DNA of 64,000 nucleotides from Isoetes taiwanensis. Lineage: Eukaryota; Streptophyta; Lycopodiopsida; Isoetales; Isoetaceae. The stretch is from the NCBI GenBank assembly GCA_021234155.1, contig JAJEKV010000063.1, positions 7,956,095 to 8,020,094 on the forward strand, in the 5' to 3' direction. This document shows positions 1 to 36,887 of this stretch, one piece after another (position 1 is the first letter of the stretch; each line of letters starts with the position of its first letter). The translations under genes and the position numbers were made by a program. A model generated the notes under the pieces. The model was not told the DNA's origin. It made no database searches and worked only from the letters and a program-made list of their open reading frames with translations.

Positions 1-42
1 AATTCTGAGAAAGTTTTCTAGTAAAACCATGGAATTTTTATA

Positions 43-3481: not shown

Positions 3482-3539
3482 CATATTTTCGATCAAGACT
3501 AGTTTTTGCTCGATGCTTCGCTAGCTTAAATTACGAGGA

Positions 3540-7786: not shown

Positions 7787-8550
7787 ATGGCTCAACCAAG
7801 GCATAAATGAGGGCTGGGGAGAGGCCCACGCTCGATGAGCAGGAGCAGTTAGGCCCAAGACACCAAGCAACCGAACACCTCGACCCAGTCGGGAAGGGCG
7901 CTTCCCGCCACAGCTAGCCGACGAAACTCCATCGGCCCTAAGAGGAGGCAGACCCAACAGTTAGCCAGCAGCCAGCCTTCGCCACGGGCACCCAGAGAAC
8001 CTGACGAGTCCCGCTTTGACTTTGGCCCCTGGACACCGAGGTAGTTGAGCAGGAAGAATGCAAGACCAAACTCTGGGAGGCAAGACCAAAGAAGCAAAGG
8101 CGGCGGAGAAGGTTTGAGCGCCCAGGACGTGACGAAGAAGAGAGGAGAGGGATTGCTGAGAGGAGAGGCTGACTGAAGAAACCTAATCGCCTGTGATTGA
8201 GGTGAGCCCGACGGAAGAAGCAGGGAAGCGGGGAAAGAAGGGGAGCACTAAGAGAATGAGGACGACGCTGGGGTCAGTTTGGGAAACCCCAACCTGGCTG
8301 CAAGACCCACCACCCCGAGGCCCAGACAGGCTATCAGCTGCAGGCCCAGCCACCGCCCGCCTGGGAGACGGGAGGAGCTCCCCACCTCAAAAGCCGCATC
8401 AGAATACCTTCATTGTTGGGATTGCGTGATAATGACCTGCACCAGCCGGCCAGAACTAGCCCGCCACCAGAAGGCGTCCAACACTGGACCAAAATTTTTC
8501 CAGCTGGAGAGGATTAGACACTTTCAACAGTGCACCAACTGCATCATTTA
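7787..8550 (+). pseudogene. H3-like ORF of the retrotransposon, copy A (broken and truncated)
   Basis: The start ATG is retained, but the tail is disrupted within the first codons by a frameshift and stop. Downstream pieces align with the intact frame of copy B. The AACTAGCCC stop context is also present here (near 8,455), so the TAG predates the duplication. The H3 fold is cut off just after IRHFQQCTN, at about 8,545. Confidence 0.8.
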
Positions 8551-15710: not shown

Positions 15711-17013
15711 TCACTCTGCTACAAAAGATAAGTTCAAGTTGGTGAGGTTAACTTCGTCATCACCCAAATCTCCAACTACAATTGTGTTTTGAAGTCTGTC
15801 TGCAATATGTGCTTGAATGATCTCGTCTGGGCCTTCGTTCACAGGTGGTGCTTGTTAAAGTACCTTGGGGGATTAGCAAATGGATTACTGCTACGGGATG
15901 AACGTATTGTGTCATTTGGAGGTGGCCCATAAAGAACAAGTGACACTTTCTCACGGGTTGCTTGGAATGGGTTCATCATTAGATCGTACGCTGCTCCGAC
16001 TTTTTTTTGCTCTACGTTTTGGCCATTGGTAGGTATAGCCCATTGCGTGCTCAGATAGAACTTTCCTGTTCTAATCAATTCCGTGATTGTATATGTCAAT
16101 GGTGGCTTGCAATGATTGGACATGCGATAATTGGCAAAATGACGGACTTTTAAAAGTAAGGTTTTGGGGTCTAGACAAACCTCATCTTTGATTTCATCTG
16201 CTCCGTAAAGCGCATATTTTTCTTCGCCCCTCATCAATTTTGTTGATGATACATTGTGCATGCGCATACTGAAATGAGGCTTTTCAAAATCCTTCATGCA
16301 ATAATCTAGTATACTTTGAGTTTTTAGAGTCCTACACATTATTTTTGCTCCAGCTGGTTTTGTTGTGTTCCATCTCATGGCTGCTTTGAGTAATGTTGCA
16401 GCACCTCTGACTCCTACTATTTTGAGTATGGATGTGGCTTGGAAGTGGGATGATCTAGATTTGATCCACGCTCTGTTACAACTAATCCTGCATGACAATG
16501 TTCAATGAAGAATTCAAAGATATTATCTATTAGTGTTGGATCATCTGTGCTTCCAATCCCTATTGTTATGAATACATCTCCACCAACTGGGTCTTTGGTT
16601 TTGTGTTCCTGCTTCTTCTTTCCTTGCTTCTTCCTTCTTTTTCATTTTCTTTGATTATTCTCAGAATGATCTGTGTCACTTGGGCTAGATGTATGAATGC
16701 TAATCGAATTTATGTCATGATCTTCAACTACAGATTGCTTTCCTTTTCTTGTATGTTTGATAGGACTAGATTCTCTAATAGGACTACAATCTCTGATATA
16801 GCTAGATGGTCCTGGCTCTTGACATGGCGGGGACTTATTTAAATGTAACACATTGCAAAATACCTCGACGCAGTGGTTGATTTCGGCTTCTTCAGGTGCT
16901 ATGGCATTTTCCTGTGCAGGGTGATTGATTTGATATGTGATGCCTTCTGCCTGCACCACTTCTATTCGTGATGATGAGTCCGGACCTCATCTATTTCCTG
17001 CCATTCTTCTCAT
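15711..17013 (-). pseudogene. Replitron-like HUH (Rep) endonuclease gene, decayed
   Basis: Rep-type HUH endonucleases nick and join single-stranded DNA; Replitrons are eukaryotic transposons encoding only a single-tyrosine Rep domain. Read on the minus strand, the N-terminal region (from about 17,013) is disordered and ends in a Lys/Arg-rich segment (KRRKKQGKKKQ), a likely nuclear signal. A Rep-like domain follows: motif I-like VFITIGIGS, motif II HFQATSI (H-hydrophobic-Q) after VVTERG, and motif III-like DYCMKDFEKPHF with the candidate catalytic Tyr and Lys. No helicase follows, which argues against Helitron or viral Rep. The C-terminal part ends at 15,711. Damage: in-frame stops near 16,988 and at 16,642, a frameshift just before HFQ (about 16,450) and another near 15,840. 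Family assignment rests on motif order only. Element ends were not identified. Confidence 0.65.
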
Positions 17014-18365: not shown

Positions 18366-18616
18366 TGGAATCAAGAATTTTCGATATAGAAAAAAAAAAT
18401 TCAGAAAGTTTTCTAGTAAAAAACCATGGAATTCTTTATAAAGTCGCATTTAATTAAAGTGGGTGAGATCCTGACATTTGGGTCTCATGCTGAAAATGGA
18501 ACTCATGCAAAAAAAAAATGTAAGTTGCCATTGAATCATTATTAGATTTTTTCTTGATAAAATAAGAATAATATTTACATACGACAATCCGAGAAAATGA
18601 AGGGGGATGGTGGAGA

Positions 18617-19075
18617 AAGAAGGAAGGAAGGAAGGAAGTATATTTTAAGGCCCATGGAGTCCAACTAGACTATGAGACGGTTATAGACATACAATATATC
18701 GGATAGTATCCAAACACAAAAGAAAACCATAAAAGCCACTGGGACGAATGTCTCTACCACTGGGACGAAAAACCCCCCATGTGGGAGGAAAAACCCTTGT
18801 AGTAGGCGTTCAAATTCCCTATATGGGCGTTCAAATTCCCTGTGCTGTAAGGGACTCTCTAACGGTGGAGACTTGCAGAATGTAGGACGCGAGACGTGCA
18901 ACTATTGGCGAAGCCAGCAGTTGATGAATTGCTATCTCAGAGCATCTGAGATCGGCATGAGCGGCTCGGATGTGTGCATATGCCGGACACTTCTGTAGAG
19001 CATGGTGTTCATCTTCTACTATCTGCATGTGACAACACTGGCATAATCTCTCATTGCCGAGTAGGAAGGAAGGGG
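18617..19075 (-). mobile_element. LINE 3' fragment nested in TIR element, copy B
   Basis: On the minus strand it encodes NERLCQCC...IVEDEHHALQKCPAYAH, the Cys/His-rich C-terminal domain of LINE ORF2. A 3' UTR with an AAAACCC/GGGTTTTT-type hairpin (near 18,770-18,800) follows, then a (TTCC)n tail. The inverted third copy of the TIR element (59.9-63.4 kb) lacks this insert, so the LINE inserted into the ancestor of copies A and B only. Confidence 0.75.
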
Positions 19076-19739
19076 AGACAGGAGGGAGGGAGGGGAAAGG
19101 CAAAGGAGCATGATGAGGGCAAAAGAGCGGGATGGGGGGGGGGGGGGGCATGGGAAAGAGGAGGAGGGGCAAAGGGGGAGAGCAAAGAGGCAAAGGGGAT
19201 ATGGGACCATATCCAAAGGGGTATGGGTAGGGGCAAAAGAACCTGGGATATATGGGTAGGGGCAAAGGGGTGGGTTAGGGAAAGGGGTATGGGTAGGGGC
19301 AAAGGGGCAAAAGGGGTGGGATATGGGGAGGGGCAAAAGGGATGAAAAAAGAAGGGAGGGAGGGAGGGAGGGAGGAGGGGTTCCATGGCTAAACACCTAT
19401 TCAAAAAAAATAAAAAGATTAATTAGACAACTTAAATAATATAATACAATTAATTAATTAATTAATTAATTATTTAGACAATAAATAATTAAACAAGAGA
19501 AGTTTTTTCTCGCCTCACGAGGCGAAAATGGGCACGATTCTATAAAATACAAAATCAAATGTGTTTTTTGAGGAACATGTGATATCTCATGAATTTAATC
19601 CCTGCAATGGCCGAAATCAACTGCAACACAAGATGCTGCGGGAATCCGGCATAGGTTATAGAATGATAAAATCCAGCAAGGCATCTCCAATTGGAAGGAG
19701 AAACTCTGCTGTTAATGCAGATTAGAAGAGTACAGGCTT

Positions 19740-20037
19740 GTAGAAGAAGAACCCAATAAGAGAAACGAACTTGTGGAGCAACAACAGCAACGGCAAGAAT
19801 GGATAACAATGCGACGAGAATCAGAGTTTCTTACTGAAGGTATTCTTGCTATTATGCATCCAGACTTTGAGGACATGGCGTTTGAGACTAACTTCGGCAC
19901 AGAACTGCTGGACTTCTGACTCATCGTGCTTTTTGAATTTTCCAACCGAGTTCGTCGGCAACGACGAACATCTTCTCCTTCTGATCGGAGGAGAACTTGG
20001 TGCAGAATCATTTTTCGAGGACGGAAGGGCCGGATAA
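19740..20037 (+). pseudogene. Coding relic inside TIR element
   Basis: A Gln-rich stretch ([20 protein letters not shown]) is followed by acidic/aromatic sequence ([16 protein letters not shown]) up to a stop at 19,917-19,919. Coding-like sequence resumes in another frame ([20 protein letters not shown]). Copy A retains parts of it. It could be the remains of a transposon-encoded protein, but I recognise no family. Confidence 0.35.
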
Positions 20038-21114
20038 ATTGTAAGCACCAACCAGGTCATGGTTGTCGGAATCAGAGCCGGGGGCGGGAGGGGCGAGGGC
20101 CATCATCATGGGAGCCGGGGATCTGGATGAAGGGAGGGCGACGTAATGGGGGAGGACCATAGCCGGGGGAGGCCGCCTCGTTTCCTCCTACAGCACTCGC
20201 AGAATGGATCCCCAGTCGGCTGTCAAATAAACACTAGATTTGCCCTTGCACTCCCCCTGGATTGTTGCTCCCGCTGTGTTCATCCTCCGATCCTTGTAGC
20301 TGCTCTGGCGTATGAAATGAGAATGACGTGGTAATCGCCCTGATGGCCCTCCTGAATCTAACCCTGCCATCGATCAACCTCTGTGCATATCTGACAGCTA
20401 GGCAGGATCTGTGCATGGCTTCTTGGAAGGTATGGCTGGGCCGAGCTTCTTAGAAGGCTTCTTAGAAAATTTTCAACTCTTCGTCCGTCGGAGCTATGGC
20501 TATGTGGTACAAAGGATATTCGTCTTAAAGGTATGTACCAAATTTTAAATTTCAAGCATGGGCGGGAAAAAAGGGCGGTGTACAGAAAAAAAGCGGGGTA
20601 AAAAAATACGAGTGTAAAATAAATGCTAATATAGGATTATAATTTGACGTTTATTTATATGTCCTCAATTTCTTTTCTTATGTGTGTGCTACTATTTTCA
20701 CACGTTTCGCATTATGTTGCCATGGTGCACGTTTTCTAGGCATATATTTCTTATTCTAAGGTAAAAATTTAACTTTTCAAGGATCATGATATACTTTACA
20801 CCTTGTTTAATCCATTTTGAAGGTTTAAGACACAAAATGGAGACAAGTACTCTTTGATGCACATGATCATCCTCTGTAGTTCCTAACACAATGTAAGGTT
20901 TACATATTAATAGATTTAATGCATAGGTTTAATAGGCTCTCATAGGTTTAATGCACAGGTTTACATTGGTTTAATCATTTCAATGTGCTTTCATAGGTTT
21001 ATTACATAGATTTACATATTTTTAATGTATAGCTTTCACAGGTTTAATGCATAGGTTTGGTACCTCTGCAAAAATAATCTATGGCTCTGAAAACTGTTTT
21101 TTTCACTATGAGTT

Positions 21115-21410
21115 GTCTTTCTCGACTCGCGAATCGAGAAAGGCCCTCAGACTTGTGTTTTTCACTCTGAGTTGCCTTTCTCGACTCACGAGTCGAGAAA
21201 GGTTATTAGAGGGGTCTTGAGGGTAAAGGCCCTCAAAAAACTTTTTTTTTCTTTTTAAAAAAAAGGAAAAAAAAGTTTTTTTTTTTGGCTCTAAGCTACA
21301 TTATCTTGACTCGCGAGTCGAGAAAGGCCTTCAGAGGGGCCTTGAGGGCCTTTCTCGACTCGTGAGTCGAGAAAAGCCCTCCTTTCTCGACTGGCGAGTC
21401 GAGAAAGGCT
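21115..21410. repeat. Array of near-perfect palindromes
   Basis: Five copies of a 26-28 bp palindrome centred on CTCGACTCGCGAGTCGAG, each flanked by CCTTT/AAAGG, within 300 bp and separated by A- or T-homopolymer runs. Some copies have one mismatch in the arm (for example GAATCGAG or GGCGAG). They lie near the right end of the TIR element and recur in the other two copies. Confidence 0.9.
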
Positions 21411-22074
21411 TTCAGACCCGCTTTTTTAAAAAATGGCCCTTAGAACTCTGTAGCATCAATTGCATTAACTTGATTTTGCCTTTTCCAGTACAGATCGCGA
21501 ACAGAAAGGACATGATCAGGAGCCATGGAAAGACCTGTTCATTAAAGAAAGAGGATGAGAAGAGGTTGATGACATGCATTGGTCAAGCCAGCACGTTCAG
21601 ATTTCTATTCTCTTCAAGTTGCTCTCGTGGCTTGGAACACCTCGGACCTTGATTCACACGTTGTTCCCAGTAGGTGGTCTGTGTGCGAAGATGATGTAAT
21701 ATTTGTGACAGCCCGACCATTATGGTCTCTTCAACCACTGTAAAATACAATGTAATGAAATTATTTAAGTATAAAAATTCAGGGTAGATTAACACTTTGT
21801 TTACAGCGAGATAGCATTTCCATTAGTTTTAGGTGTGCTCTTTACCTTTTCTCGCTAACTGAGAAAAGTAGACCATGTAATTTTCCTTTAACATTTTTTT
21901 TTTCACACATTCTAAAGCAATAAAGGGGTTTCAAAACTTTTCCTTTTCGTGTAAAATAACATGGGTTTCAAAAAAAAGTGGGAATGGCATGTGACCCACT
22001 TTAATTAAATGTGACTTCATATTTTCGACTGAAGACTAGTTTTTTGCTCGATGCTTTCTGCTAGCTTAAATTAC

Positions 22075-22345
22075 GTAGGAAATTTACCTTTTTCTGTACA
22101 GAGTTTGTCGCTCACAGGATATGATATCACTGCCTTAGATGGTTTGTCATAAACTGAATCCTTTGCAACAAACACCTGCACAATTTTACTTTGGCTAACA
22201 AGTCGGTCATGGCAGGTTAACTCAGGCTGGTCAAAAGCAACAAGCTCGACCATGATGAACCCTGCAACAGGACCTTTAGAGGACGACCAAAACATAAATG
22301 TCGATCATGGGAGCAGACTTGCAGAGACCAATCAAGAACATCCCT
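22075..22345 (-). pseudogene. Unknown coding relic
   Basis: Read on the minus strand after an acceptor-like TTTTGCAG, it encodes DVLDWSLQVCSHDRHLCFGR. After a frameshift it continues VELVAFDQPELTCHDRLVSQ and VFVAKDSVYDKPSKAVISYP, with a stop near 22,071. The sequence looks truly coding and is present in both segmental copies. It sits between the TIR element and the Crypton-like gene and might be a distal exon of the latter. Function unknown. Confidence 0.4.
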
Positions 22346-23216
22346 GCAAAACACTAGTTAGCAAACCAAGAAGAAACCAACGAATAAGCCATACATCGGT
22401 TTGTTCGGAAATGGCAGAACCCAATGGTGCAAGGATGATTTAAGGTGGCCAAAATACAACCGCAACTCTGTTACATGGCGAGGAAAAAGCTCTGTTACAT
22501 GTATTAAAAAAAATACTACCATAGCCACGGCCTCAAGGAAAGTTGGTTAATATTCTTGCTTAATGTCCAATGGATGGCTTCTATGTGGCAACCATTCTAT
22601 CCAAGAATGACAAATGGCTTTGTCATTCTTAGGTGACTTGTTGTAACCAGTTAAAGCGTAAAACTAAAATTCTTAGTTGACGAGTTTGAGAGTTACAGAT
22701 CAGTTACACATGATCTATTGTCTCAGACCTGCATCTATTTATAACAATTATTACATCACTTTTGACAGTTACATTGTTCAAACAGATGTCCAATTGCATT
22801 ATATTCACATTCAAAAATTCCATCGTTTGTACACTATCTGCTACATGCCATTAAGAAAATTCCCTCATTTGTATTCCAGGATTTTTTACATGTACCTGTA
22901 CCTGCAAGATAAATATAAATTAGATAGAACATATCATTTTGATGAAACGAATGCAAATATCAAAATCAAATAATACCATATCAGTGGAAATTGAAAGTAA
23001 AAGAACAATTGTTGTAGACAGTTTTGCTATGTTTTTCTGCCTCTATGCAAATCTTCTAGAAAACATTATCATCATCAGGTCAGATTATTTCATTTATCAA
23101 ATTATTGTCACGATCAGCTAATTGCAAGAATATAAAATGGTACTTTGTTAATTTTTGCAAGTAAACAAAGTAATTGCTAATTGCTAATCACAAGAAGATA
23201 AAAGACTACCTATTTT

Positions 23217-24232
23217 TTGAAGACCATTACCATCGCCAACAGTTGGACTATGACTTACATTTTGAAGAGCATTACCAATGCCAATGCTTGGACCAACACT
23301 GCTATGATTAGCGACGGAATTTTGCACCGAAGGAAAACGATAAATTAGTAATTGTACATACACAGAAATAATATATATGAAAAATTACCTATTTTAACAA
23401 TATCAACAGCGTCGTAGCATCAACAATGCTTGGACCATCACTCACACAGCTGGTCGGATTAATGGCAGGATTTTGCACCTGTATTAATGCATTTTCAGAG
23501 CGCAATGTACCTTCAGAAGCTATAACAGCCATGGCAGCAACAACTCTGGCATCCCCACTTTGGTCATACCTTTTGTATGCATCTATGCTCTTATGCCCTG
23601 TTACTTCCATCCCAACATCTTCTGGAACACCTGCAGCCTACAACCAAGTAATGGATGATGCCCGACAAGACTTATTATCGTAATCACTTCCTAATCCAGC
23701 ATTTATAGCCATTTGTTTCAGTCATTTCCGCATTGTCCCTTCAAAAGAATGATTTGTACTATACCACACATGAGATATGTGCCTGTTAATTGGTTGTGAA
23801 AAGACATACATGCTACCAAACTCATCGACCACCTCATAGATCGCTAAATGGCTCAAAAGGCCTTCCCAAGTAGAAAGCACATCATTTTCCTTGCATTTTA
23901 CAGTAGCCCTGCTTTGTAGTGATTCTTATCGACATGATCTTGAAAAATGCAAGATGCTTACAAAAAACATCGTCTCAAACCAAAACATGATATCCCGTAA
24001 CTTCGCTAACTCTTTTCCACCTCGCACAAGAAATCTAGTCATACAATAATAGCCAAATCGCCTTTGCAACCCATATGGCGTATTAATCTGATGTGCACCA
24101 TGAGCTAAAATTTTTGCCTCGTCTGCTGCACTAAGAATCCTAGATTTCTTACGTTGAGTTACCTTTCCAGCCTTACCGGATCTCTTCATTGCTACTTCTA
24201 GATTGATTACGGCTAGTAGAAAAAATGGATGG
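23217..24232 (-). pseudogene. Crypton-like tyrosine recombinase, C-terminal part
   Basis: Tyrosine recombinases of Crypton elements cut and rejoin DNA through a tyrosine nucleophile. On the minus strand the segment encodes an Arg-rich linker, then SRILSAADEAKILAHGA...NTPYGLQRRFGYYCMTRFLV, typical of Crypton/DUF3504 proteins. It goes on to STNHSFEGTM, NKSCRAS (HxxR-box position, with Lys for His), AGVPEDVGMEVTGHKSIDAY and KRY, giving the GH...Y motif with the catalytic Tyr. Two in-frame stops (both one transition from Trp or Gln) and an indel interrupt it. After a donor near 23,388, a second C-terminal exon (NHSSVGPSIGIGNALQ, about 23,219-23,330) repeats a theme of the previous exon end. The gene is cut at 24,232 by the LTR retrotransposon; the upstream coding sequence resumes at 35,917. 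Confidence 0.85.
24228..24232. repeat. Target site duplication GATGG (left)
   Basis: GATGG immediately precedes the 5' LTR and matches GATGG at 35,917-35,921 directly after the 3' LTR. Confidence 0.95.
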
Positions 24233-25978
24233 TGTGACGTTCCAGGGGAATATACGCCATAAAATACGTATATTCCTGGACCCGTCACCATACAAGTCTA
24301 CGTATGTAGCCTTGTATGCCTTAGAAAGTGGCAAGGGGTGCACATCTAAGTCAAGTGTTTAACTTAGATAACCTTAGGATAAGCCCATTTCCACATGGCC
24401 TTATCCTATTGGGCAACCGCCACACGGCCTCATCCTATATTGGCTCTAACCCTAACCCTAGACCCTTTTCCCTGACCTAGCACCTGAACTCTCATCCACG
24501 CGTCCCAAACCCCCGCGAAAGCATCGTCGTCATAGTCTAGCCTCGGAGCAAAGAGCCCCCCGGAAGGTGTATATGATCGTAGAGGGAGCCGTGCTTTCGC
24601 ACCCACGTCAAGGAGCATGGAGACGCCAGGGATGGGAGGGAGCACTTCTGGAGGAGGTAGGTTGAGTAGGGTTCATGTTAGTTCATCTGGAAGTTAGCAC
24701 TCCAGATGGGTTAGTATTTCGTGTAGAGCCACCCTAGAATTTTGTTGAACATCTTGAACCCTAATCAAGGAACCCTAACCGTAAGTTTAGATTTGTATGA
24801 TTAGGTTAAGATGTTCTTATGATTATTCTCATGATGTGATGATTATATGATGATGGTTGATCATGTTTGCTCCTCTTGTATTTGGAAGGGGGGTAGAGAC
24901 CTAGAGCCATATGTAGTATGCTCCTAGATTGGATCCCTTAGTTCCTATTAGTTGCCTCAGGCATAGGAACCCACCGGCTATGGAAGCTATGATGTGACTC
25001 AGCACTACACAACGGGCTAGAGGCAAGATGGAGGGTGGATCCCCCGCCGAAGTGGGGGCCGGGGGATCCCGTGAGTGGGCTAGGCTTATGGTGGTCACTT
25101 AGTGTGGGCCGAGCATGGGTCCCACACCTCCGGGCAATGGTGTCGCCGCCTCTCAAGAGTTGCAAGCGTCGCCTTGGCTCTTGTTTTGGGGGTTCACTGG
25201 GTACCTAATCGTGGTGTCGCCACGATTCTCTAGCCTGAGCCTCTAGACCCCGAAGGGGAGATGCAACCCTTCCTAGACCCGGAGTAGAATGGGGGATGGG
25301 ATGCAACCCTTCCTACCTGATCTAGCCTGTGGAGATGCGGATGGAGGGTCAACCCTAGCCATTGTTTATGGGTGAAAGCAGTAGTCCATCTAAAGTTCTT
25401 TTTAGGGTGATGCCATTGGGACGGAAACTTGTATGAATGTGTCAATAAAACAAGGTTTGAGAGTCATTTTAGCTAATAGTATTGTTACCTCCTAATACTA
25501 TAGATTGACTAGCCCATCAAAAAATTTGAATTGATTTTAATGGAAAGTATAGAAATGCTTTTAAAAGAGGGCGGATGGAGTGGTCAACCCTAGCCATTGT
25601 TCTTAAATGCCGCCATTGCCATGACTGGTCCCGCTTCTATCTTGAGGCTTAGCCCGGGCCGGTCCTCCTCCTTATGAGTCCGAGCCTGGGTAGGAGCTAT
25701 CATGTTTTACGGTTTATGATTATCATCTTTGCATTGGTATATGTGTGATGGACTACCCTTCGAGGTAGTATTTATATGTTTGAAGCTAGTTCTGACATGT
25801 TTATCGCTTCCGCTGATCTAGGAGCCCATAGGGGAAGGGCGCGCAAGACACCTTCGTGTCCCCTCCCCGAACTAGGATCACCTCAGAGTGCGGGGTAGAC
25901 GAGGGGCCTGTGCGGTTGTTGAGCCGGACGGGGATTTGCCGAGTACCGGCCAGCCGATATTTAGCAGGGAGCGTCACA
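24233..25978 (+). repeat. 5' LTR
   Basis: 1,746 bp, TGTGACG...CGTCACA. Compared with the 3' LTR it lacks a ~37 bp segment (GTGCCACGTGGCATCCCATG region). It has an extra ~270 bp at about 25,280-25,570 that partly duplicates the GATGCAACCCTTCCTA and GTCAACCCTAGCCATTG motifs. Confidence 0.95.
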
Positions 25979-25979
25979 A

Positions 25980-25991
25980 TGGTATCAGAGC
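25980..25991 (+). promoter_or_regulatory. Primer-binding site for initiator-Met tRNA
   Basis: TGGTATCAGAGC, one base after the LTR end. This is the standard plant complement to the 3' end of initiator methionine tRNA and starts minus-strand DNA synthesis. Confidence 0.95.
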
Positions 25992-26558
25992 GATGTTCTT
26001 GGTTGACCAGGAACTAGCACTGACCATAACCATGAAAGTAGTCTAACAAGCTTATAGGGGTGCGAAATAAAAATTTCCACCATCGAACCTCGACAATAGG
26101 AGAAAAATTTTTCTCCTAGGTAGTGGGTCCGAAATTAGGATAAGTGTTAGGCGAAGAAATGAATGAGTCAAATTCACCTTCTAGTAAATTTGGAGTGAAA
26201 ATTATGCATCTGCATCAAATTTCACCAAAAATGGGTCAAAGAATTATGCCAATCTGAGACTCGAGTGAAAAATGGCGCAAATCCATAATTAATACTTCAA
26301 ACTATTAGGAAATTCGAAATCCTAAGAGTATAATACGAATTTAAGTATATATATTAGAAATTAAATAGACATTAATAATAAGGGTACTATGGTGTAATTA
26401 ATAAGGGGGGCTAATAAGTAGGCCTATTAATGGTAGGGAATATTCCCAGGGACCCTCCTTTTTTAAATATCCCTGACACCTCATTTTCCCTCCAACCTTT
26501 TCCTCCACCATCTCTCTCTTGCTCAGCCTTACGTCATCCATTTCCCACACCGTTAAGT

Positions 26559-27689
26559 ATGGCTCGAACCAAGCAGACAGCTAGGAAGGCTGGGGAGAGG
26601 CCTACGCTCTCGATGGCGCAGGCAGCAGCAGGTCGGCACACCAAGCAAATCCTTGAACACCTTCGACCTAAGCCGGGGGAAGGGGCGTTTCCCCCCAGCA
26701 GCAGCGACGAAACCTTCCACGTCTCGGAAGAGGAGGCACCCAACAGCAGCAGCAGCAGTTCTTCGTCGGCGGGCACCCAGAGAACCGACGAGTCCCGCCA
26801 CTTTGGGCCCTCGTCGGACACCGAGGTGGAAGAGCAGGTGGAAGAACAGCCCCAGCACCAAACTCAGGAGGCGGGCCCTTCGGCACCAAAGAAGAAGGGC
26901 AAGAAGAAGGTTGCAGAGTGGCCGGAGGACAGGGCAGCACGAAAGAAGAGAGAGAGGGAGCTGCTTGAGAGGGAGAGGCGGACCAAGAGAAGAAACGACG
27001 GCCCTCGCCGGACCGTCGTGATTGAGGAGCCTCCCCGACGAGAAGAAGAGGAAGTGGGAGAAGAAGGGGGAGCAGACGAAGAGGAAGAACAGGAGGACGA
27101 CGAAGTCGTCGGGGAAACCTCAAACCCCGATGCAAGACCACCTTACCCGAAGTGGCCCAAGCCACCTAAGGTGGTCAAGAAGCAGAAGGCCGGCGAGCGA
27201 CCGTTCGCCCTACGGGAGGAGCGCCTCTTCAGACGCCGCCTCAAAGCGTACCAGGAATACCTTCATTGTTGGACGAGGTATAATGACTGGTACTGCCGCC
27301 AGAATGTGCAGCGCTACGTGAAGGGCGGCCGACCCAGCAAGAACTAGCCCAAGCCGCCGCCGCCACGCCCAGAGAAACCCAAGAAGGTCCACCACGGACC
27401 AAACTCCCTGCACGCCCGAGTTTTTCGAGAGATTAGACACTTTCAGCAGTGCACTAATCTCTTGATTAGGAAGGCACCTTTCGAGCGGCTCATGCGAGAG
27501 GTGATGCAGGAGTTCGTCACCGACTATAGAGTGACGTCGCTCACGACAAGGGTGCTGCAGGTAGCTGCGGAGGCCGAGCTCACCCAATTGTTCGAGGAAG
27601 GAAACCTCTGCGCAATCCATGCGAAGAGGGTAACGCTGATGCCCAAGGACTTATACTTGGCGCGCCGTATCCGCAAGGAGTACCCTTGA
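26559..27689 (+). CDS. Retrotransposon-borne histone H3-like protein with H3 tail (one in-frame TAG)
   Basis: The frame starts at an ATG in good context (A at -3, G at +4) and reads [16 protein letters not shown], identical to the histone H3 tail through Lys9. A Ser-rich stretch (residues ~75-90), an acidic and Lys/Arg-rich segment with coiled-coil character (~120-190) and a Trp/Tyr/Pro-rich part (~195-262) follow, up to TAG at 27,345-27,347. The same frame continues: Pro/Lys linker, then [20 protein letters not shown] (alpha-N helix), [14 protein letters not shown] (loop 1 of canonical length), and [16 protein letters not shown] and LARRIR (alpha-2/alpha-3), to a stop at 27,687-27,689. H3 is normally ~136 residues; this would be 376. 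The EIRHFQ..TNLLI segment recalls plant CENH3, while loop 1 lacks the CENH3 insertion. It lies between the primer site and gag; copy A has the broken equivalent. Alternative: a host H3-family gene captured as a passenger. Confidence 0.85.
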
Positions 27690-28452
27690 GGATATAATTT
27701 TGTGTAAATTAATGTAATTGATAAATTTTCCCCTATAAATATAAAATTTTGTTTGCAAATTGACTTTGTTTTTTGTATGAAGATGTGTTTAGATTGTTCA
27801 AATTCTACCTTAGTTTTAGCCATCATAATTGTAAGGACCAAAATAGGTTAAATTAGTAAAGTTTCCGAGTCAAATTCGTCAAAATTCGGACCGAAGACCC
27901 GAAATCGGGCCCTCTGCGCTCTCTACGCAGGGCCTAAATTCGCATAGCCACCCAGTTTCGCTAATTCGAGGCCAAATCATACCCAATTAGCTCAGGAAAA
28001 GTCTTTAGTTAGGTAAGAATTGTCCAAATAATCATGCTAGTATCTTTAAATTTCCAAAAATCTTTGGTAGAAATCCAAAAGACCCGAAATCGGGTCGCTG
28101 CGCGAAAAACCCCTCTGCGCTCTCTACGTATGGCTTAATTTCGCATAACCCGGTTTCGCCCATTTTTTGCCCAAATTGACCAATTTTGATCCAACAAACT
28201 GCCATATAGTGTTTTTTGCCTCGATTTGCTTAGGTTCGCACTTCATGGTAGCTCATTTGGACACCCATAGCCATAGAACAGAAGTCTTCTCCATCAAGAA
28301 CCCTTGTGCACGGAACCCGAGGCATTCCTAGTCTATAAAAGGGGGCCTCATTTGTCATTTTCCCCCCATCCAAACTGCTCTCAGCCCTTTTTGGCGATTT
28401 TCTAGCTCCTTGCTCATTTTCACAAGCCATTTTTCATAGCCATCTCTACTCA
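27690..28452 (+). promoter_or_regulatory. Noncoding spacer with TATA box before gag
   Basis: No coding frame. An imperfect direct repeat starts GACCCGAAATCGGG at about 27,894 and again at about 28,080, each followed by CTCTGCGCTCTCTACG and TTCGCATA. A strong TATA box (TATAAAA, 28,334-28,340) lies ~115 bp before the gag-region ATG at 28,453. This suggests a second, internal promoter that would separate H3-like and gag-pol expression, or the scar of a captured promoter. Confidence 0.5.
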
Positions 28453-28800
28453 ATGGCGCCATCAAGCTTTGTTAGATGGTACAATGAGGCCAATCACATC
28501 CGTGATTTCCCTGCTGAGCAAGCCTTCCATGTCTTTGATCATCTCTTTGATCTTCATGCCACCTTGACTAGAACTCCCTATTACACCGACATCATTTGCC
28601 AGTATGACCAGCAGATCCTACCCTGGGAAGTTAGTCTGCCACCTAGGGGAGGGAAATGGGTTTCTCTAGATTCGCTGACCCAAGCCATAGGTGGGGGATC
28701 TAAGACGAAGAATAAGTTGTGGGATAGAACCAGAAACATGCCAGATTACATGACTGTAAGCATCATAGGCATAGATACCTCTCAAACCAAGCAGCCTTAG
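28453..28800 (+). CDS. Gag-region ORF, N-terminal part
   Basis: A 115-residue open frame starts MAPSSFVRWYNEANH and contains a hydrophobic/aromatic segment. It stops at 28,798-28,800; similar coding composition goes on in other frames, so the original gag was longer. I recognise no precise capsid motif. Position between leader and protease supports a gag assignment. Confidence 0.5.
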   Translation: MAPSSFVRWYNEANHIRDFPAEQAFHVFDHLFDLHATLTRTPYYTDIICQYDQQILPWEVSLPPRGGKWVSLDSLTQAIGGGSKTKNKLWDRTRNMPDYMTVSIIGIDTSQTKQP

Positions 28801-28802
28801 CT

Positions 28803-29960
28803 TTGTTCATGCAGTACAAGGCAGTCAACCAACCAGGGGAGCCGTCAATTCAACCTTTAGACCTGGCACCTCTCAACACTCGGAGGGCGCAGATAGACAT
28901 CCACGAGATCCAGGCTACGGAGTACGAGTACCACGGCTCTACATCAGGAACACCTATGTTGCAGATTGAGCAGGATTATGAAGAGGAAGAGGAACATAAC
29001 CCAAGTTGGGAAATGAGGGAGGCAAAAAGGATGGAGAGGCGTATAGCACGACAAGAAGAAGTATTAAGGCGAGACTTGAACCGTTTGTTTGGCAGATCAC
29101 GCCCCGACCCCGATCATCATCAATGGCGAGGAGTACATATTCGCCAACGACATCCTCAACCTTCCCTATTGTCAAGAAGAAGGTCCCAGGACCGATGAGC
29201 TCCTCAGCCTAATTGCAAAAGAACAGGGCAGCGACTTCATCGATTATGATTACCAAGAAATTCCAAAGGAGGTAGCCGAGCGACACTCCTACGCCGGGGC
29301 AACTATGTCAGACATTCAAGCTTACCAACGATAAGGCGATGTATCAAGAAGAAGAACCCGCCATTCCGTAAGAGGAATTCCAGGCGATCCAAAGCGGGCT
29401 ATACAAGCCGAAGAGGCCCAGATTGAACTAGGGTACCTTGTCAAGAGCAAAAGTACGAGGAATTCATGCGACTTAGGCTCCATGTTCCCTGAGTTTTGGA
29501 AAGGCAAGTTTATTGAAACTTACATTGAGGGATTGAACAAGAATATCAAAAGGCTAGTCCGAAAGTAATCAACCCAAAGTCGCTAAGGGTAAGCCCGGGA
29601 TAAAGCCATAAGTTTGGAAGAAGCTCCACCAACGCGGAGGAGAGAAACAAATGGGCCTTCAAGGGAAAGTCAACAGGCAAGCATTCAAGGGCAAAGATTT
29701 AGAGTAAGCAATCAAAGAATCACGCATCGAGGAGGCCAAAGCCAGGAAGAGCCGTGGTAAGACCTTTGGGGACCGTAAGCCACGTATCGCATCGGGGCTG
29801 CGTGCTAAAAGCGCCTTCTAGACAACCGGACTAAAGAGAAGAGACAGAGTGTATCGAGAAGAAGCTATGTTTCGTGTGCTTCCAGCCTGTGGCAATCAAC
29901 ACATGATTGCCCATTTGTCATGCAGCAGCTTTTAGCAGAGCTTGTGGATTGGGATTCACC
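28803..29960 (+). pseudogene. Gag remnants (acidic region, capsid-like part, zinc knuckle)
   Basis: Fragments in several frames: a Glu/Arg-rich stretch (EEEEEHNPSWEMREAKRMER), NGEEYIFANDILNLPYCQEE at 29.12 kb, a Gag-like GKFIETYIEGLNKNIKRLV at ~29.5 kb, and a degraded CCHC knuckle (KKLCFVCFQPVGNQH) at ~29.87 kb. Multiple frameshifts separate them. Confidence 0.65.
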
Positions 29961-30716
29961 AACGTAATGCATCTAAGATCGGCGACCAAAGATGAGACCC
30001 AGGACTTCATAGATGGTGAGTGCCACATATGTGCAAACATTGAGTCAGGTGATATAGAAAATCAGTCGACAGTCATTGCGGCTGATGGGATCATAGATAG
30101 TAACCCATATGTAGTCCTCATAGATATAGGTAGCTCTCACAACTTCGCCTCTCCTAGGCTGGCAGCCCTGATGAAGAACAAGGTATTGAAGTCTAAGCCA
30201 AGGCTAGTTGCTATGGCAAACGGCGCCATTCGGCACACTAAGGGGAGGAGGATCACATTCAACATAGACCTTAGTGGAAGTAAGTGGCCGATGGGGGCAG
30301 AGGTCATGGAAATTGGAAGGTATGACCTTATAGTAGGAATGGAGTTCCTAAAGCCAGCCAAAGCCATGATCGACTGTGACCGCAATGAAGTCGCCATGAC
30401 AGCACCGGACGGCACCAAATTCATAGTGAGAGGTAAGAAGGCAGCTTCTTCTATGCAGTGTATTTCTTTGAAGCAGCTAAGGAAAAGTATAGAAAGGAAT
30501 AAGGTGGATTACATTTTGAGGTTAGAAGCAATTGAGCCCAATAAGCAGGATGGAAGCGACCAAAAGGGGAATCAGTTGCCCAAGCCAGTAGCAAGGCTTA
30601 TTTCGGAGTTTAAGGATGTATTCCCGGATGAAATCCGGCAGCTACCACCTTATAGGGGTGTGGAATGTGAGATCACATTAGCTCCAGATGCAAAGCCTAC
30701 CAAGAAGGCGCAATGA
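29961..30716 (+). pseudogene. Retroelement aspartic protease and start of pol
   Basis: The pepsin-like protease active site appears as VVLIDIGSSHNFASP, with Ile where Thr or Ser normally follows the catalytic Asp. The flap region and YDLIVGMEFLKP follow. The frame then leads into the conserved pre-RT segment (DVFPDEIRQLPPYRGVECEI) and stops at 30,714-30,716. It would release Gag and Pol proteins in an active element. Confidence 0.85.
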
Positions 30717-31440
30717 GCATGTAATGAGCACACCGGAGTTGATTGAGCTTAAGAAGCAACTCCAGGAATTGCTTGAGCTTGGCTTTATTAGAGCAAGTGT
30801 GTCTCCTTTTGGAGCACCTATACTCTTCGTGAAGAAGAAAGATGAGAGCTTAAGAATGTGATAGACTATCGCCAAACTCAACAAGGCGATAAAGAATAAG
30901 TATGCATTGCCAAGGGCAGATGATTTAATGGACCAGCTCCAAGGAGCAAAGGTATTCTCTAAAATTGATTTGAGGTCAGGGTACCACCAAATAAGAATAA
31001 AAGAAGAGGATATCCATAAGACCGCCTTTAGAACGCGGGTATGGTCACTTTGAGTTTACAAAGAATGCCCCTTTGGATTGTCGAACGCTTCCAAAGAACT
31101 TTCATGCGCCTCATGAACGACATCTTCAGGGATTTCCTAGATGAGTTTGTCATTGTCTTCTTCGACGACATTCTAGTCTACAGCAAGTCCATTGAAGATC
31201 ATGGTCGGCATTTGAGAAGAGTGTTGGAAAAGTTGAGGCGGCATCGCTTGTATGGAAAGCTCTCCAAATGCCACTTTGCTACGGAAAGAGTGGAGTACTT
31301 GGGCCATGTCATATCGGGCGAAGGGATCTCCACCGACCCAATAAAGATCGGCAAGAGTGGATTGGCCAGCTCCAAAGAATGTGGAGGAAGTAAGAAGCTT
31401 TCTAGGTCCTGGTGTTATTACAGAAGTTCATGAAGGACTT
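30717..31440 (+). pseudogene. Reverse transcriptase, frameshifted
   Basis: Ty3-type RT motifs across frames: [14 protein letters not shown] near 30,960, then FVIVFFDDILVYSKS (catalytic DD pair) near 31,150, and YGKLSKCHFATERVEYLGHV near 31,250. Several stops and indels make it inactive. Confidence 0.9.
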
Positions 31441-31559
31441 CGCCAAGTGGGGCCCCTTTGTGGACCTCACTAAGAGTGTTAAGGTGAAAGATGGAGAACA
31501 CATTGGCTACAAAATGTTCAAGCTTCATTTGAAAAGCTTAAGGAAGCCTTAACAACATT

Positions 31560-31960
31560 CCCGGTGCTAGTTCTCGCCGTGATCCGCATAAGGACAAGAT
31601 AGTAGCAACAGATGCAAGTAAGATAGCGACAGATGGAGTCCTTATGCAAGAAGGAAGAGTAGTGGCCTATGATTCCAAGAAGTTGAACGACACCGAGAAG
31701 CGCTATTCAACCCATGATCAGGAACTTCTAGCTATTGTCGAGCTCTTCAGATTTGGAGGCACTATTTGTTTGGGAGGAAGTTTCAGTTAGATACTGATCA
31801 CCAGAGCCTCCAATACATCTTTACCCAACCGCTCCTCAATCTAAGGCAAAGGAGGTGGATGGAATTTCTAGAAGAGTATGATTTCGAGATTGCTTATAAG
31901 CCAGGTAAGTTGAACGTGGTTGCTGATGCTCTTTCTAGCAGACCTTTTGAGACGAGAACG
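31560..31960 (+). pseudogene. RNase H domain
   Basis: Motifs VATDASKIATDGVL, RYSTHDQELLAIV and LDTDHQSLQYIF place the catalytic acidic residues of a Ty3-type RNase H. A frameshift separates the first two from the third. Confidence 0.85.
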
Positions 31961-33135
31961 CATTGTAATGCGATTTCCACTCTTTCGAGTGAGTTTGGTA
32001 AGAAGATCGAAGAGACCCTGCAATCAGATAGAGATTTCAAGGAGGTATGTGAAAGTCTCTCCAGGGAGGCTAGAATGGACAAGGAACGAGAAGCCTTCAA
32101 GCATTATAAGAAGGAAGGCAACTTGTTATACCATAAGGACAAATTGTGTGTGCCCGAGTCGTCAGGTATAAGAAAGCTGATTCTCCATGACACACACAAC
32201 AGCCCAATAGCAGGGCATGCAGGGTTCATGAAGACCTACTTCAAGATTCGGAGTAGCTACTTCTGGCCGGGAATGAAGAAGCACATAGCCAGGTTTAGAG
32301 CCTTTGGGGGTGCCAAATGCTAAGTGGGAGGTCATAAGCATGGATTTTATAACAGGACTTCCCAAAACTCTTCGAGGCAAGGATGCATTGATGGTCGTAG
32401 TAGACAAACTATCTAAGATGGCGCATTTTGTGCCTTGTAAGACTACGGACACAGCATTAGATACTGCCAAGCTATTTGTGAAGGAGATTTTTAGGCTCCA
32501 TGGCATGCCTCGGGAGATAATATCTGACAGGGATTCTAAGTTTTATGAGTGCTTTTTGGTAGGACCTCTTTAGCACCATTCAGACGAAGCTCTCCATGAG
32601 CACGGCATATCATCCCCAAACAGATGGTCAGACGGAGAGGACGAATCGAATCATTGAGGATATGCTTAGAAGCTTCGTGTGGAATAAGCAGTCCAAGTGG
32701 GATGAGTACATCCACTTGGTGGAATTCGCCTACAACAGTGCCAAGCAGGAGTCATCTCAGATGTCTCCTTTCATGGTGAATTACGGGTACCAGTGCTTAA
32801 CCCTGGATACTTGGCACAACCCCGTGTCAAAGGTTGAAGTATCCCAGCAGATGCTCGGAGATATGCAGCAGCTGGTGGAAGAAGTAAGGGGTTACCTCCT
32901 AGCAGCAAGAAGTCGGCAGAAGAGTGTAGCCGACAAGCACAGGACCGTAAGAGAGTTCAAGGTAGGCGATAGCGTGTGGTTGAAGATCAAGGTCAAGCAA
33001 GCTAAGCTTCGGATTGGGAGTTGCAAGAAGCTTGCCCCTAGGTGGGCTGGTCCGTTCAAGATTTTGGAGAGAGTGGGCTCCCAAGCCTACAAGTTGGATC
33101 TTCTGGCCCATCTCAAAGTTCACAAGGTCTTCCAT
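31961..33135 (+). pseudogene. Integrase, with deletion and frameshift
   Basis: The N-terminal zinc domain keeps its His pair (LHDTHNSPIAGHAGFMKTYF) but the Cys pair is missing, apparently through a deletion near 32,300. The core has MDFITGLPK (first Asp), IISDRDSKF (second Asp) and, after a frameshift near 32,555, HPQTDGQTERTNRIIEDML (Glu). The GPF/Y-like segment follows (APRWAGPFKILERVG). Confidence 0.9.
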
Positions 33136-33372
33136 GTAAGTTTATTAAAAAGGCACAATCCTAACCCTGAGGAGGTCTTGGATACTCCAACTTTGTTGGA
33201 AATGACGGAAGAGCAGGTCGAAATTGTGCCTGAGTTACTTCTTGATAAGTCATTCAAGAAGACCAGGAGGTCTCGTTCTCAAAGTATTTGGTCAAGTGGA
33301 AGCACTTGCCCGTGGGAAGACGCGACATGGGTATTGAAGCGTGATTTGGAGAAACAATACCCGAATTTATGA
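33136..33372 (+). pseudogene. C-terminal chromodomain of the integrase
   Basis: After LKVHKVFHVSLLK the frame gives PELLLDKSFKKTRR. The core YLVKWKHLP is readable only in a second frame (33,280-33,310), and DATWVLKRDLEKQYP closes it in the first. Chromodomains read methylated H3 tails and steer chromovirus insertion to heterochromatin. Two compensating indels interrupt this copy. Confidence 0.8.
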
Positions 33373-34260
33373 AGGAGTTCGATGGGCGAAGTCGTCTCCC
33401 CACTTGGTTTAACTCTCGACTTGCCAAGAGGTTAGCTTAGTATGTTCTTAGTTAGTTTTCTACCTCCGCAGATGTATTCTAGTTAGTGGAATACATATGC
33501 GTAATCTTGGAACATGTGGGCGATGATGAGATAAGCCTTTAAGGCGTTCTCTAGGCCAACATGCACCAAGAGGTGCGCATGACCAATAGGGTCATGCGAG
33601 TGAGAGAGAAGTAAGGCATAGTGTGCAATGATGGGACATCGGTCGGATGCTCCCTATGCCACGATGCGGGGTTCGCACACCTGGCCATAGGGGGGTCATG
33701 GTGAAGGTCAAAGTGATCATAAAAGCGATGATGGGATCGCGGAGACGTTCCCTAGCTTAAAACCCTTGGGGCATGATGCACTAGGGGTACTTTGCAGACC
33801 GGTAACCGAGTACAAGGTAGCACTTGATCATGGGCGATGATGGGATCATCTTAAATGGTCCTTAAGCTCAAATCCGAAAGGGCCATGATCGAGTGCAAGG
33901 TATTGGTAAGGGGGGTGGTCCCCTAAAACCACAAACTTATTAATTAAACTAACGTAATGTGCTCCTTGTGCAGGAAAGTGAGAAGAGAGCATCGAGGTGG
34001 GGCGCATTACGAGAGGATGGGGGAGCCATAATTTAGATTATGAACCCTAATAACTCTTATAGTAATGTTTTGAATTATTATAAGAAGGAACCTTGTTAAG
34101 GCTATATAATTTTGTATAAGTACAAATATAGCCTAAATTTTGACATTTAACTCTTTAATAGGAAGATTGATCGTTTAAATTTAAGTGTATGTTCTTGTGT
34201 TGTTTTGTAGGATAGATTAGGCTCGTCACCTTAGCGCAATGCTGAGGACAGCATTGTCCT
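33373..34260 (+). repeat. 3' noncoding region with degenerate tandem repeats
   Basis: From about 33,515 to 33,900 there are four diverged units with GCGATGATGGGATC-like cores followed by a CTCCCTA/CCTAGGCC-like stretch. The remainder to the polypurine tract is AT-rich with no coding signal. Confidence 0.6.
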
Positions 34261-34273
34261 AAGGGGGGGAGAA
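34261..34273 (+). promoter_or_regulatory. Polypurine tract
   Basis: AAGGGGGGGAGAA abuts the 3' LTR and would prime plus-strand DNA synthesis. Confidence 0.9.
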
Positions 34274-35916
34274 TGTGACGTTCCAGGGGAATATACGCCA
34301 TAAAATATGTATATTCCTGGACCCGTCACCATACAAGTCTACGTATGTAGCCTTGTATGCCTTAGAAAGTGGCAAGGGGTGCACATCTAAGTCAAGTGTT
34401 TAACTTAGATAACCTTAGGATAAGCCCATTTCCACATGGCCTTATCCTATTGGGCAACCGCCACACGGCCTCATCCTAGTGGTGCCACGTGGCATCCCAT
34501 GTGGACCCACACCTATATTGGCTCTAACCCTAACCCTAGACCCTTTTCCCTGACCTAGCACCTGAACTCTCATCCACGTGCCCGAAACCCCGTTTCGAGC
34601 ACCGTTCGTCATAGTCTAGCCTGGAGCAGCAGCCCCTGGAAGGTGTGTATGATCGTAGAGGAAGCCAGCCTTCGACCCACGTCAAGGAGCATGGAGACGC
34701 CAGGGATGGGAGGGAGCGCTTCTGGAGGAGGTAGGTTGAGTAGGGTTCATGTTAGTTCATCTGGAAGTTAGCACTCCAGATGGGTTAGTATTTCGTGTCT
34801 AGAGTAGAGCCACCCTAGAACCTTTGTTGAACATCTTGAACCCTAATCAAGGAACCCTAACTGTAAGCTAGATTTGTATGATTAGGTTAAGATGTTCTTA
34901 TGATTATTCTCATGATGTGATGATTATATGATGATGGTTGATCATGTTTGCTCCTCTTGTATTTGGAAGGGGGGTAGAGACCTAGAGCCATATGTAGTAT
35001 GCTCCTAGATTGGATCCCTTAGTTCCTATTAGTTGCGGCCTGTGCATAGGAACCCAGGGCTATGGAAGCTATGATGTGACTCAAGCACTACACAACGGGC
35101 TAGAGGCAAGATGGAGGGTGGATCCCCGCCGAGTGGGGGCCGGGGGGATCCCGTGAGTGGGCTAGGCTTATGGTCTGGTCACTTGCGGTGGGCCGAGCAT
35201 GGGTCCCGACACCTCCTGGGGCAATGGTGTCGCCCCGCCTCTCAAGAGTTGCAAGTGTCAGCTTGGCTCTTGTTTTGGGGGTTCGGTCGGGTACGAATCG
35301 TGTGTCGTCACGATTCCCTAGCTGCCCGTGGAGCCTCTAGACCCGGGAAGGGGAGATGCAACCCTTCCTACCCGGCTTCCGGACTGGGGAGATGCAACCT
35401 GGAGTAGTCCCGATGGGTGATGCCATGGGACTGCGTATCCGGAAGGTTAGAGTCATGCCACAGCTTGATCTAGCCCATCTGCAAAGTATGCACAGGAGGG
35501 GCGGATGGAGTGGTCAACCCTAGCCATTGTCTTATGCCAGCCCTCGCCATTGCCATGACTCGGTCTGCTCTATCTTGAGGCTTAGCCGGTCAGTCCTCCT
35601 CCTTATGAGTCTGAGCCTGGGTAGGAGCTATCATGTTTTACGGTTTATGATTATCATCTTTGCATTGGTATATGTGTGATGGACTACCCTTCGAGGTAGT
35701 ATTTATATGTTTGATGCTAGTTCTGACATGTTTATCGCTTCCGCTGATCTAGGAGCCCATAGGGGAAGGGCGCGCAAGACACCTTCGTGTCCTCTCCCCG
35801 CACTAGGATCACCTCTGAGTGCGGGGTAGACGAGGGGCCTGTGCGGTTGTTGAGCCGGACGGGGGATTCCTGCCGAGTGTACGGCCAGGCGCCGTATATT
35901 TAGCAAGGGCGTCACA
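34274..35916 (+). repeat. 3' LTR
   Basis: 1,643 bp, TGTGACG...CGTCACA, followed by the GATGG target duplication. It is similar to the 5' LTR but differs by several indels and many point changes, so the insertion is not recent. Confidence 0.95.
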
Positions 35917-36887
35917 GATGGGTCATGATGTCAAACGCCATCTCTGGATTACTTGATTGAGCTGACCTACGATTTCTCTCCATTCGAATCATCCGGTTGA
36001 AGCATAAAAATAATGACCACAACCTGCATACCAAATTAGAATAAATACAAGAACAGAAACACAGAAAATAGAAACATAACTAAATAAGATACAAAGAAAG
36101 TAAAATACATATGTTTATGGAGGAAATAGAGTTCCATCAAGTCACTGAACTTGCAGAATGAATGTTTTGAGCATGCCTGCAAATTGTTTCAAATCCAGAG
36201 CTTCAACTGGAATATCTATGCTAAACCCTTTAACATGCCTCCAAGCATCAAATCTGCATCTTGCCCATCCATCCTTCTCTTCAGAATTATTGTCACCACC
36301 TTTTGCAATAAGTTTCTGAATTTCGTCATCAATTTCCAGTAGAGGACCACATTTAAGGATTGTTTTTGCACGCAGATGCTTTTTTCTTGTTGCAGGCCTC
36401 GCTTTAACTATTGCAAAGAAGAGGGTGGATCAAGACTAGACAAAGGAGCAAATGTACTATATGATCCTTCTTAGCAACCGAATTTACTATTATCCGATCT
36501 TCTCTAGCAAGCAAATCTACTATTGTCTCCTCTTCCCTATCAAGAGTTGCAAGTCATCAAATATTAAGGGAAAAACTAGGAGTAGCACCATCAATAGATT
36601 TTTTCTCAAGACTCCAACATTCTCACGCTCATCATCCTGGCTAAGAACATAACTAGAGGCAGATGTAGAGGCAATTTCTCCAACAATACGGATATTGCTA
36701 AGAACATTACTTGAAATTTCTCTCGATGGAAATGATGCACCTAAAAAAATAAAAGCACCTAAATCTAAAGAACCTAAATAAAAGCACCTAAATCAAAGAA
36801 ACTTACCTCTACTTCTATCCGGCCTCTACCACGACATGCAAGATCCCCCCGGACACCACGGTTTCCACGAGCTTGTTGAAGCATATT
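35917..36887 (-). pseudogene. Crypton-like tyrosine recombinase, N-terminal part
   Basis: On the minus strand, an exon at 36,807-36,887 encodes an Arg/Gly-rich start (NMLQQARGNRGVRGD) with good acceptor and donor (GTAAGT). Coding relics at 36,142-36,740 read GASFPSREISSNVL, LDREEETIVDLLAREDRIIV, then IVKARPATRKKHLRAK. The core-binding-like segment follows: WARCRFDAWRHVKGFSIDIP and LKQFAGMLKTFILQVQ, resembling the N-terminal DNA-binding domain of Crypton/DUF3504 recombinases. After an intron (acceptor at 36,024) the last exon runs into MAFDIMTH at the retrotransposon junction. With one GATGG removed, the frame is continuous into LLAVINLEVAMKRSGK at 24,232 and below. In-frame stops and a frameshift show decay. 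Confidence 0.75.

Follow-up and report, generated by a model that had tools for sequence, protein, structure and literature searches.

An LTR-retrotransposon lineage of Isoetes taiwanensis encodes a histone H3 that is under selection. The gene was recognised within a stretch of 64,000 nt of this genome (the window, here always meaning the whole stretch that was analysed), where positions 26559-27689 form a single frame whose translation consists of an H3 tail, an insert and an H3 fold ending in ARRIRKEYP. Among the copies of this family the protein is under purifying selection in both tail and fold. Histones serve the host in silencing retrotransposons, so hardly any gene would be less expected in one than a core histone. 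Our leading interpretation, to which we give nearly even chances, is that the element captured a host H3 long ago and kept it, and that the resulting long-tailed variant enters nucleosomes and shows its K4 end in favor of active chromatin. We infer the capture from the host, expression, pairing with H4, loading, binding of readers and benefit to the element. Such an element may build or disturb host chromatin.

The element and its histone H3 frame

By its sequence, the region 24233-35916 is a Ty3/gypsy LTR element, putatively of the chromovirus branch, with a chromodomain integrase. The hallmarks of LTR retrotransposons, namely paired LTRs, target duplication, primer-binding site and polypurine tract, are all present. 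The features are listed below with window positions and strand.

24228-24232 (no strand): target-site duplication GATGG, 5' side, identical to 35917-35921
24233-25978 (+): 5' LTR (TGTGACG...CGTCACA), 1746 b, paired with 34274-35916
25980-25991 (+): primer-binding site TGGTATCAGAGC, directly 3' of the 5' LTR
26559-26588 (+): exact histone H3 tail (ARTKQTARK), from translation; pooled dN/dS of the tail codons 0.061 in 15 copies
26589-27344 (+): charged insert, 252 aa, no Pfam family above cut-off; dN/dS 0.148
27345-27347 (+): in-frame TAG stop, private to the window copy among the copies read; open in 15 of 15 full copies
27348-27689 (+): end of the linker and histone H3 fold (aN, a1, a2, a3), then TGA; from PF00125 (E 9.5e-29), AF2 and Foldseek
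28453 to about 29334 (+): second accessory frame (ORF2), between the H3 gene and gag; frames broken here
29335-29906 (+): gag remnant with broken frames, assigned by eye; the sister copy L023 has an open gag frame after its H3 gene
29907-30716 (+): aspartic protease, RVP_2 (E 1.8e-10)
31041-31433 (+): part of the reverse transcriptase, RVT_1 (E 3e-15)
31766-32323 (+): end of RNase H and integrase zinc-binding domain (RT_RNaseH 4.7e-7, Integrase_H2C2 5.7e-13)
32596-33372 (+): C-terminal part of the integrase, SH3_Tf2-1 (7.5e-22), and frame-broken chromodomain with motifs in two frames
34261-34273 (+): polypurine tract AAGGGGGGGAGAA, just 5' of the 3' LTR
34274-35916 (+): 3' LTR, 1643 b, paired with the 5' LTR
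35917-35921 (no strand): target-site duplication GATGG, 3' side, identical to 24228-24232

An earlier reading of the sequence only had placed the H3 frame between primer-binding site and gag, inside paired LTRs with a perfect target duplication. This placement stands, with GATGG on both sides and TGGTATCAGAGC, presumably of the initiator tRNA-Met type, after the 5' LTR. The order protease, reverse transcriptase, RNase H, integrase was found in the window element and also in L023, although the pol of the window copy carries frame breaks. A chromodomain follows the integrase, in two frames in the window, in an open frame in L023 and as a PF00385 match in the closest integrase relatives (P0241-P0243, 74-75% identity). 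The next integrase matches (about 37-53%) include Tanacetum, the fern Adiantum nelumboides and proteins labelled PITA, a label that we take to mean pine. The two LTRs of the window element differ at 35 of 938 sites when ungapped blocks of at least 60 columns are compared; over the whole alignment 9.2% of aligned sites differ, with 29 gap openings, many of them in GC-rich patches.

No Pfam match was obtained for ORF2 of the window. The end of ORF2 has a weak match (E 0.02) at the corresponding place of L031 and L032, and L014 and L020 have frames there whose kinship to it was judged by eye. No second accessory frame was seen in L023, whose H3 gene is directly followed by a gag-like frame. Scanning the window for Rfam families and tRNAs gave no match. 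An internal promoter was considered and rejected, as the single TATA pattern was not above chance.

Translation confirms that the H3 frame opens with the H3 tail through Lys9, as had been claimed. The claim that it ends in an H3 fold is borne out as well: the PF00125 profile matches 27348-27686 with an E-value of 9.5e-29, a phmmer search of PDB gives a best E-value of 7e-30, and 55 of 87 core positions, aligned without a gap, carry the canonical H3 residue. Up to E 1, the PDB search gave 180 different sequences, and the 60 of these that were inspected are H3 or histone-domain chains. The portion of the frame before the inner stop had no Pfam family above the cut-off. A charged insert of about 275 residues separates K9 from the fold. 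The insert is balanced in charge (K+R 0.19, D+E 0.19, pI 7.2), and pI values are 9.4 for the fold and 11.2 for the short linker 264-287. In the window copy the in-frame stop sits between insert and fold, ahead of the final stop at 27687-27689. It also occurs in a duplicate representation of the locus (near 8457), so the inner stop is probably real in the window copy.

The AF2 model of the window fold was computed from an alignment of this fold and 49 H3-type relatives, an input therefore rich in H3s, and has a mean pLDDT of 79.6 with helices at 21-35, 42-56, 64-91 and 99-108 (aN-a1-a2-a3). The top Foldseek matches of the model are nucleosomal H3 chains (E 5.7e-8). As judged from sequence and predicted model, the window protein has a true H3 fold.

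Selection in the window family and its sister sub-families

We searched the host assembly (1.658 Gb) with the window fold and scored 150 of 9487 first-look candidates. These 150 match the window fold at 91-100% identity over nearly its whole length; the first is the window itself and the other 149 are at 91-98%. A stop inside the fold was seen in 10 of the 150. Twenty further copies were chosen for open frames of at least 348 aa and taken as gene-sized pieces, the LTRs of this family being established in the window copy. A complete frame of 361-385 aa starting with MARTKQT was found in 15 of these 20, which is more than chance would leave, and the H3 frame is without an intact start in the remaining five (L038, L040, L049, L052, L056). 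The tail is exact in nine of the 15 full copies, MARTKQTYRK in four and MARTKQTGRK in one, and one has R8 changed. Residues 1-6 (A-R-T-K-Q-T) and K9 are therefore invariant in 15 of 15, with A7 changed in five copies and R8 in one.

The sequence-only reading had proposed to measure dN/dS across element copies. Pooled over 105 pairs of the 15 full copies, with dS of 0.58-0.91, dN/dS was 0.050 for the fold, 0.061 for the tail, 0.119 for residues 264-287 and 0.148 for the insert. A dN of the fold about 20 times below dS cannot be produced by the choice of open frames alone, which drops stop-bearing copies. The number of stops alone is not decisive against neutral decay, since 18-19% of simulated runs of decay to 55/87 were free of stops; the pooled fold value of 0.05 does exclude it.

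A genome search with PF00125 gave 8705 first-look candidates, from which we scored the best 150; the list is ranked by score, and the counts that follow are lower bounds. All 150 were above the cut-off and five had a stop inside the match. Fifteen matched profile positions 2-122 in frames of 139-232 aa, and the three of these that were read (L006, L010, L012) are ordinary H3. Among the other 135, open frames reach at least 300 aa in 55 and at least 400 aa in 36. We took 10-kb stretches around 20 loci of the sister sub-families, chosen mostly for long frames. A near-canonical H3 fold lies at the end of the frame in all 20 and shares 73-77 of 87 residues with host H3, and all 20 differ from the host gene L010 at S86 and S87.

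The 16 sister copies with a readable start fall into three groups by their N-terminal domain; in L018, L028, L029 and L033 the start of the H3 frame is not visible. Starts are MANTKSAP in group C and MPRFKLT or MSRFKLT in group A. Allowing up to three changes, an H3 tail was found in 0 of the 20 copies (16 with a readable start), although the fifth letter, at the place of K4, is lysine in all 16. The N-terminal domain (L030:5153-6454(-) and kin) is confidently modelled as an alpha/beta structure, blocks within residues 11-220 having pLDDT of 78-96, and a structure search with the L030 model gave no PDB match at E 0.001. No similarity was detected between this domain and the insert of the window family. 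A protein from another source, P0002, aligns along the sister N-domain.

The sister genes likewise appear to lie in LTR elements. A primer-site motif of the TGGTATCAGAG type was found at 2.78-2.90 kb in 14 of the 20 stretches, in LTR-end context in 13, and protease or reverse transcriptase lies downstream of the H3 gene in 15; neither was seen within the 10-kb stretches of L024, L026, L027, L029 and L033. L023 reads LTR, primer site, H3 gene, gag-protease-RT, RNase H, integrase, LTR, and its integrase is 77% identical to that of the window. LTRs with target duplications were found in four of four copies tested (L014 GTGGC, L017 GGAAA, L023 CAATC, L031 GTGACC), the members of each LTR pair being 93-96.5% alike by BLAST. 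In at least 18 of the 20 sister copies the LTR region is similar to the window LTR, at 68-89% in patches of 47-329 columns, which argues for one lineage. The L030 locus (gene-strand numbering) has a 95.5% direct repeat, 1229-3463 / 7012-9263, holding LTR and leader, and may be a compound of two elements.

Sister dN/dS (Nei-Gojobori) was calculated from 39 within-group pairs of 15 copies, leaving out L018, L019, L028, L029 and L033. The median was 0.03 for the fold (37 pairs with dS over 0.05), 0.11 for the N-domain (30 pairs with usable dS) and 0.17 for the linker (37 pairs).

Origin, fold surfaces and proposed function

A tree built from 37 fold rows over 87 columns unites the sisters and P0002 in a clade (100/96), which is placed with host H3 (98/81). 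The window family makes up a separate clade (100/100), carried by the longest branch (0.77), and is joined to P0034 and P0123 (95/83). With so few columns the tree is compatible with one or two captures of H3. A 90-row tree of H3 folds did not place the window. An origin from CENH3, represented by the Festuca protein P0115, which we take to be a plant CENH3 by its motifs, is not supported: loop 1 of the window fold is not lengthened, the fold is closer to the H3 P0123 (57%) than to P0115 (51%), and the tree has no grouping with P0115. Both are divergent H3 variants and share the motifs TLM and YLARR, but unlike CENH3 the window fold has no lengthened loop 1 and keeps R63-K64. With canonical H3 the window protein shares tail residues 1-9, the fold and the length of loop 1; it differs in having about 275 residues after K9, in the absence of S10, in 32 of 87 core residues and in being encoded by a retrotransposon.

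The first protein search gave 145 matches, 120 of which were listed. Among the 120 listed, 47 proteins have an H3-type tail (up to two changes; exact in 34), then at least 100 residues and then an H3 fold. These proteins (P0005-P0106) are 362-453 aa long, one cluster has 282 members, and they are 97% alike in the tail, 91% in the fold and 74-84% in the insert. Their family is possibly mobile too; no homology was detected between the window insert and P0005 and kin. A further H3-fold family of 445-475 aa (P0100, P0103, P0104, P0107, P0109) has an internal ARTK[Q/K/R]TARK, 153-192 residues into the protein and 78-79 before the fold. The viral contigs searched gave no relative, and phage sequences gave no match for P0009. 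H3 genes were also seen at five loci (L001-L005) on contigs filed under prokaryotic or bacterial bins, probably as eukaryotic contamination.

The 32 core substitutions of the window fold lie mostly where H3 varies. Compared with 97 canonical-like H3s, 25 are in the variable half of sites (p<=5e-5), and compared with the 27 least similar H3s, 22 are (p 0.0017), for a comparison set that was itself collected by similarity to the window. The L2-a3 part, which makes the H3-H3' and H4 contacts in the nucleosome structure, keeps 14 of 17 residues, and the start of a2 (85-91), presumably the H3 patch that sets chaperone choice, keeps one of seven. Together with the S86 and S87 changes of the sisters, this would agree with an H3 variant that is loaded by a route of its own. 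Because the insert lies within the tail and not in the core, a core can form. K56 is Q, and R40 and R42 ahead of aN look lost by eye, which suggests that the DNA grip of the protein may be weak.

The mechanism that we propose would begin with the ancient capture of a host histone H3 gene, retained as an accessory gene that follows the primer site and precedes gag. Its product would consist of nine H3 residues, a flexible charged linker of about 275 residues replacing the rest of the tail, and an intact H3 core. Most likely it would pair with host H4 through the preserved L2-a3 surfaces and would then be loaded into nucleosomes, on element DNA or more widely. The K4-bearing H3 end, carried on a long arm, could cause chromatin around the element to be read as H3K4-type, that is active, rather than silenced. 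What speaks against this mechanism is the long branch of the window fold, the stop in the window copy and the five of 20 chosen copies without an intact start. Display of the tail cannot be the common job of all sub-families, as the sisters are without it. A broader version, possible although we lean against it, is that the lineage makes its own H3 variant and that K4-tailed, element-specific nucleosomes resist silencing, with the tail-insert-fold proteins found elsewhere as parallel or shared cases.

Several other explanations were weighed. The protein could be mostly soluble and act as a decoy that titrates H3 chaperones or H3-tail enzymes (K4/K9 writers, readers) and weakens silencing while not being incorporated into nucleosomes, as the earlier reading had partly suggested. 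Residues 1-6 and K9 are constant in 15 of 15 full copies while their neighbours vary, and the tail dN/dS of 0.061 would agree with such a role; yet a pure tail decoy needs no core, and the core is the most constrained part (0.05, sisters 0.03). In addition, 6 of 15 copies have a change at A7 or R8, residues that K9 enzymes need. This pattern would favor K4-side readers over K9 enzymes, so that the K9 half of the docking or decoy idea looks weaker than the K4 half. We consider a decoy unlikely. Still more improbable is a role in packaging, in which the histone protein would associate with RNA or cDNA of the element inside virus-like particles, or bring the pre-integration complex to chromatin. 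That the gene comes first in the internal region, ahead of gag, and that the fold and linker 264-287 are basic is in its favor, but the main insert is near neutral, and packaging alone would hardly preserve identity to host H3 at 73-77 of 87 core residues in the sisters, nor the tail of the window family.

The chromodomain integrase raises the question of self-tethering, by which this domain would bind methylated K9 of the element's own H3 and steer insertion. The chromodomains of the window and L023, however, have I/W/L at the three presumed aromatic-cage places, and the neighbours of K9 vary among copies; we regard this as very improbable. Least probable, to a degree that makes it practically negligible, is a chance passenger, that is a processed host H3 in one or few copies that is now decaying. 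The in-frame stop of the window copy would fit it. The sequence-only reading had itself considered that no other copy might carry the ORF, or that a recent processed host H3 might be in neutral decay. Neither is the case: there are 149 other scored matches at 91-98%, 15 of 20 chosen copies are full length, and dN/dS is 0.05-0.15, with 0.05 for the pooled fold.

Comparison with known systems and context in the window

A transposon-borne H3-like gene is already in print: a hAT DNA transposon of the fungus Pyrenophora tritici-repentis carries H3L, with 26 copies reported (PMC3538342, available text). This is also a transposable element that multiplies an H3-like gene with an H3-like tail. It is, however, a fungal DNA transposon with very similar recent copies, its function left open in that text, whereas here we have an LTR retrotransposon with divergent copies, strong purifying selection and a long insert between tail and fold. 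In the portions of the open-licence literature covered, no LTR retrotransposon with a histone gene was recognised and no report of such a case was found, which is no proof of priority. The other close parallel is that of single viral histones such as the H4 of a bracovirus, which has an extended tail and is reported to enter host nucleosomes (PMC9145170, in part), a precedent for the loading proposed here. The bracovirus H4 is likewise a single core histone with conserved fold and extended tail encoded by a viral element, but it is H4 rather than H3 and belongs to a polydnavirus of wasps; the portion of this review that was available has 0 mentions of retrotranspos or retrovir. Accessory genes of Ty3/gypsy elements (PMC7264820, PMC9289625) are a further parallel, and the orchid AlkB likewise edits a host-type regulatory mark. 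In the available text of these papers no histone is seen among them, the word occurring 0 times in the former and twice, incidentally, in the latter. Influenza NS1 (PMC12937675) is also a parasite protein presenting an H3-tail-like end to host factors; it is a short C-terminal mimic, with no histone fold mentioned in the text available.

A selected, multicopy H3 makes it directly testable whether a parasite writes its own chromatin state. The window family splits the first nine residues of the H3 tail from the rest, a natural experiment on their role alone, and in the sister sub-families H3 is joined to an N-terminal domain that, in the L030 model, has no PDB match at the above threshold.

The window holds the H3 locus in two representations. 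Positions 1-6673 align with 18398-25275 at 84% and 6795-8482 with 25567-27333 at 75%; both share the same flank and insertion site, and the first ends inside the H3 gene at about 8550. Across 29 windows of 200 columns, identity between them drops as GC rises (r -0.72), and 188 gaps open within the 5.7 kb of flank alone. The divergence between the representations exceeds that between the two LTRs, which is unlikely for a duplication after insertion. We read 1 to about 8550 as an error-rich second assembly of the locus at 18398 to about 27460, likely an artefact. Its use as a second copy for dN/dS was rejected because of the common flank and insertion site and the identity falling with GC.

Elsewhere in the window, 15839-16495 (-) has a frame resembling a Replitron HUH endonuclease (27.5 bits, cut-off 28.5) and 42265-42723 (-) a reverse transcriptase piece, probably non-LTR (RVT_1, 20.1 bits, below cut-off). 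Downstream of the element, 46244-51290 (+) contains pieces of a host DHX29-like helicase, with UBA_DHX29 and helicase C above the cut-off and a weak RWD match.
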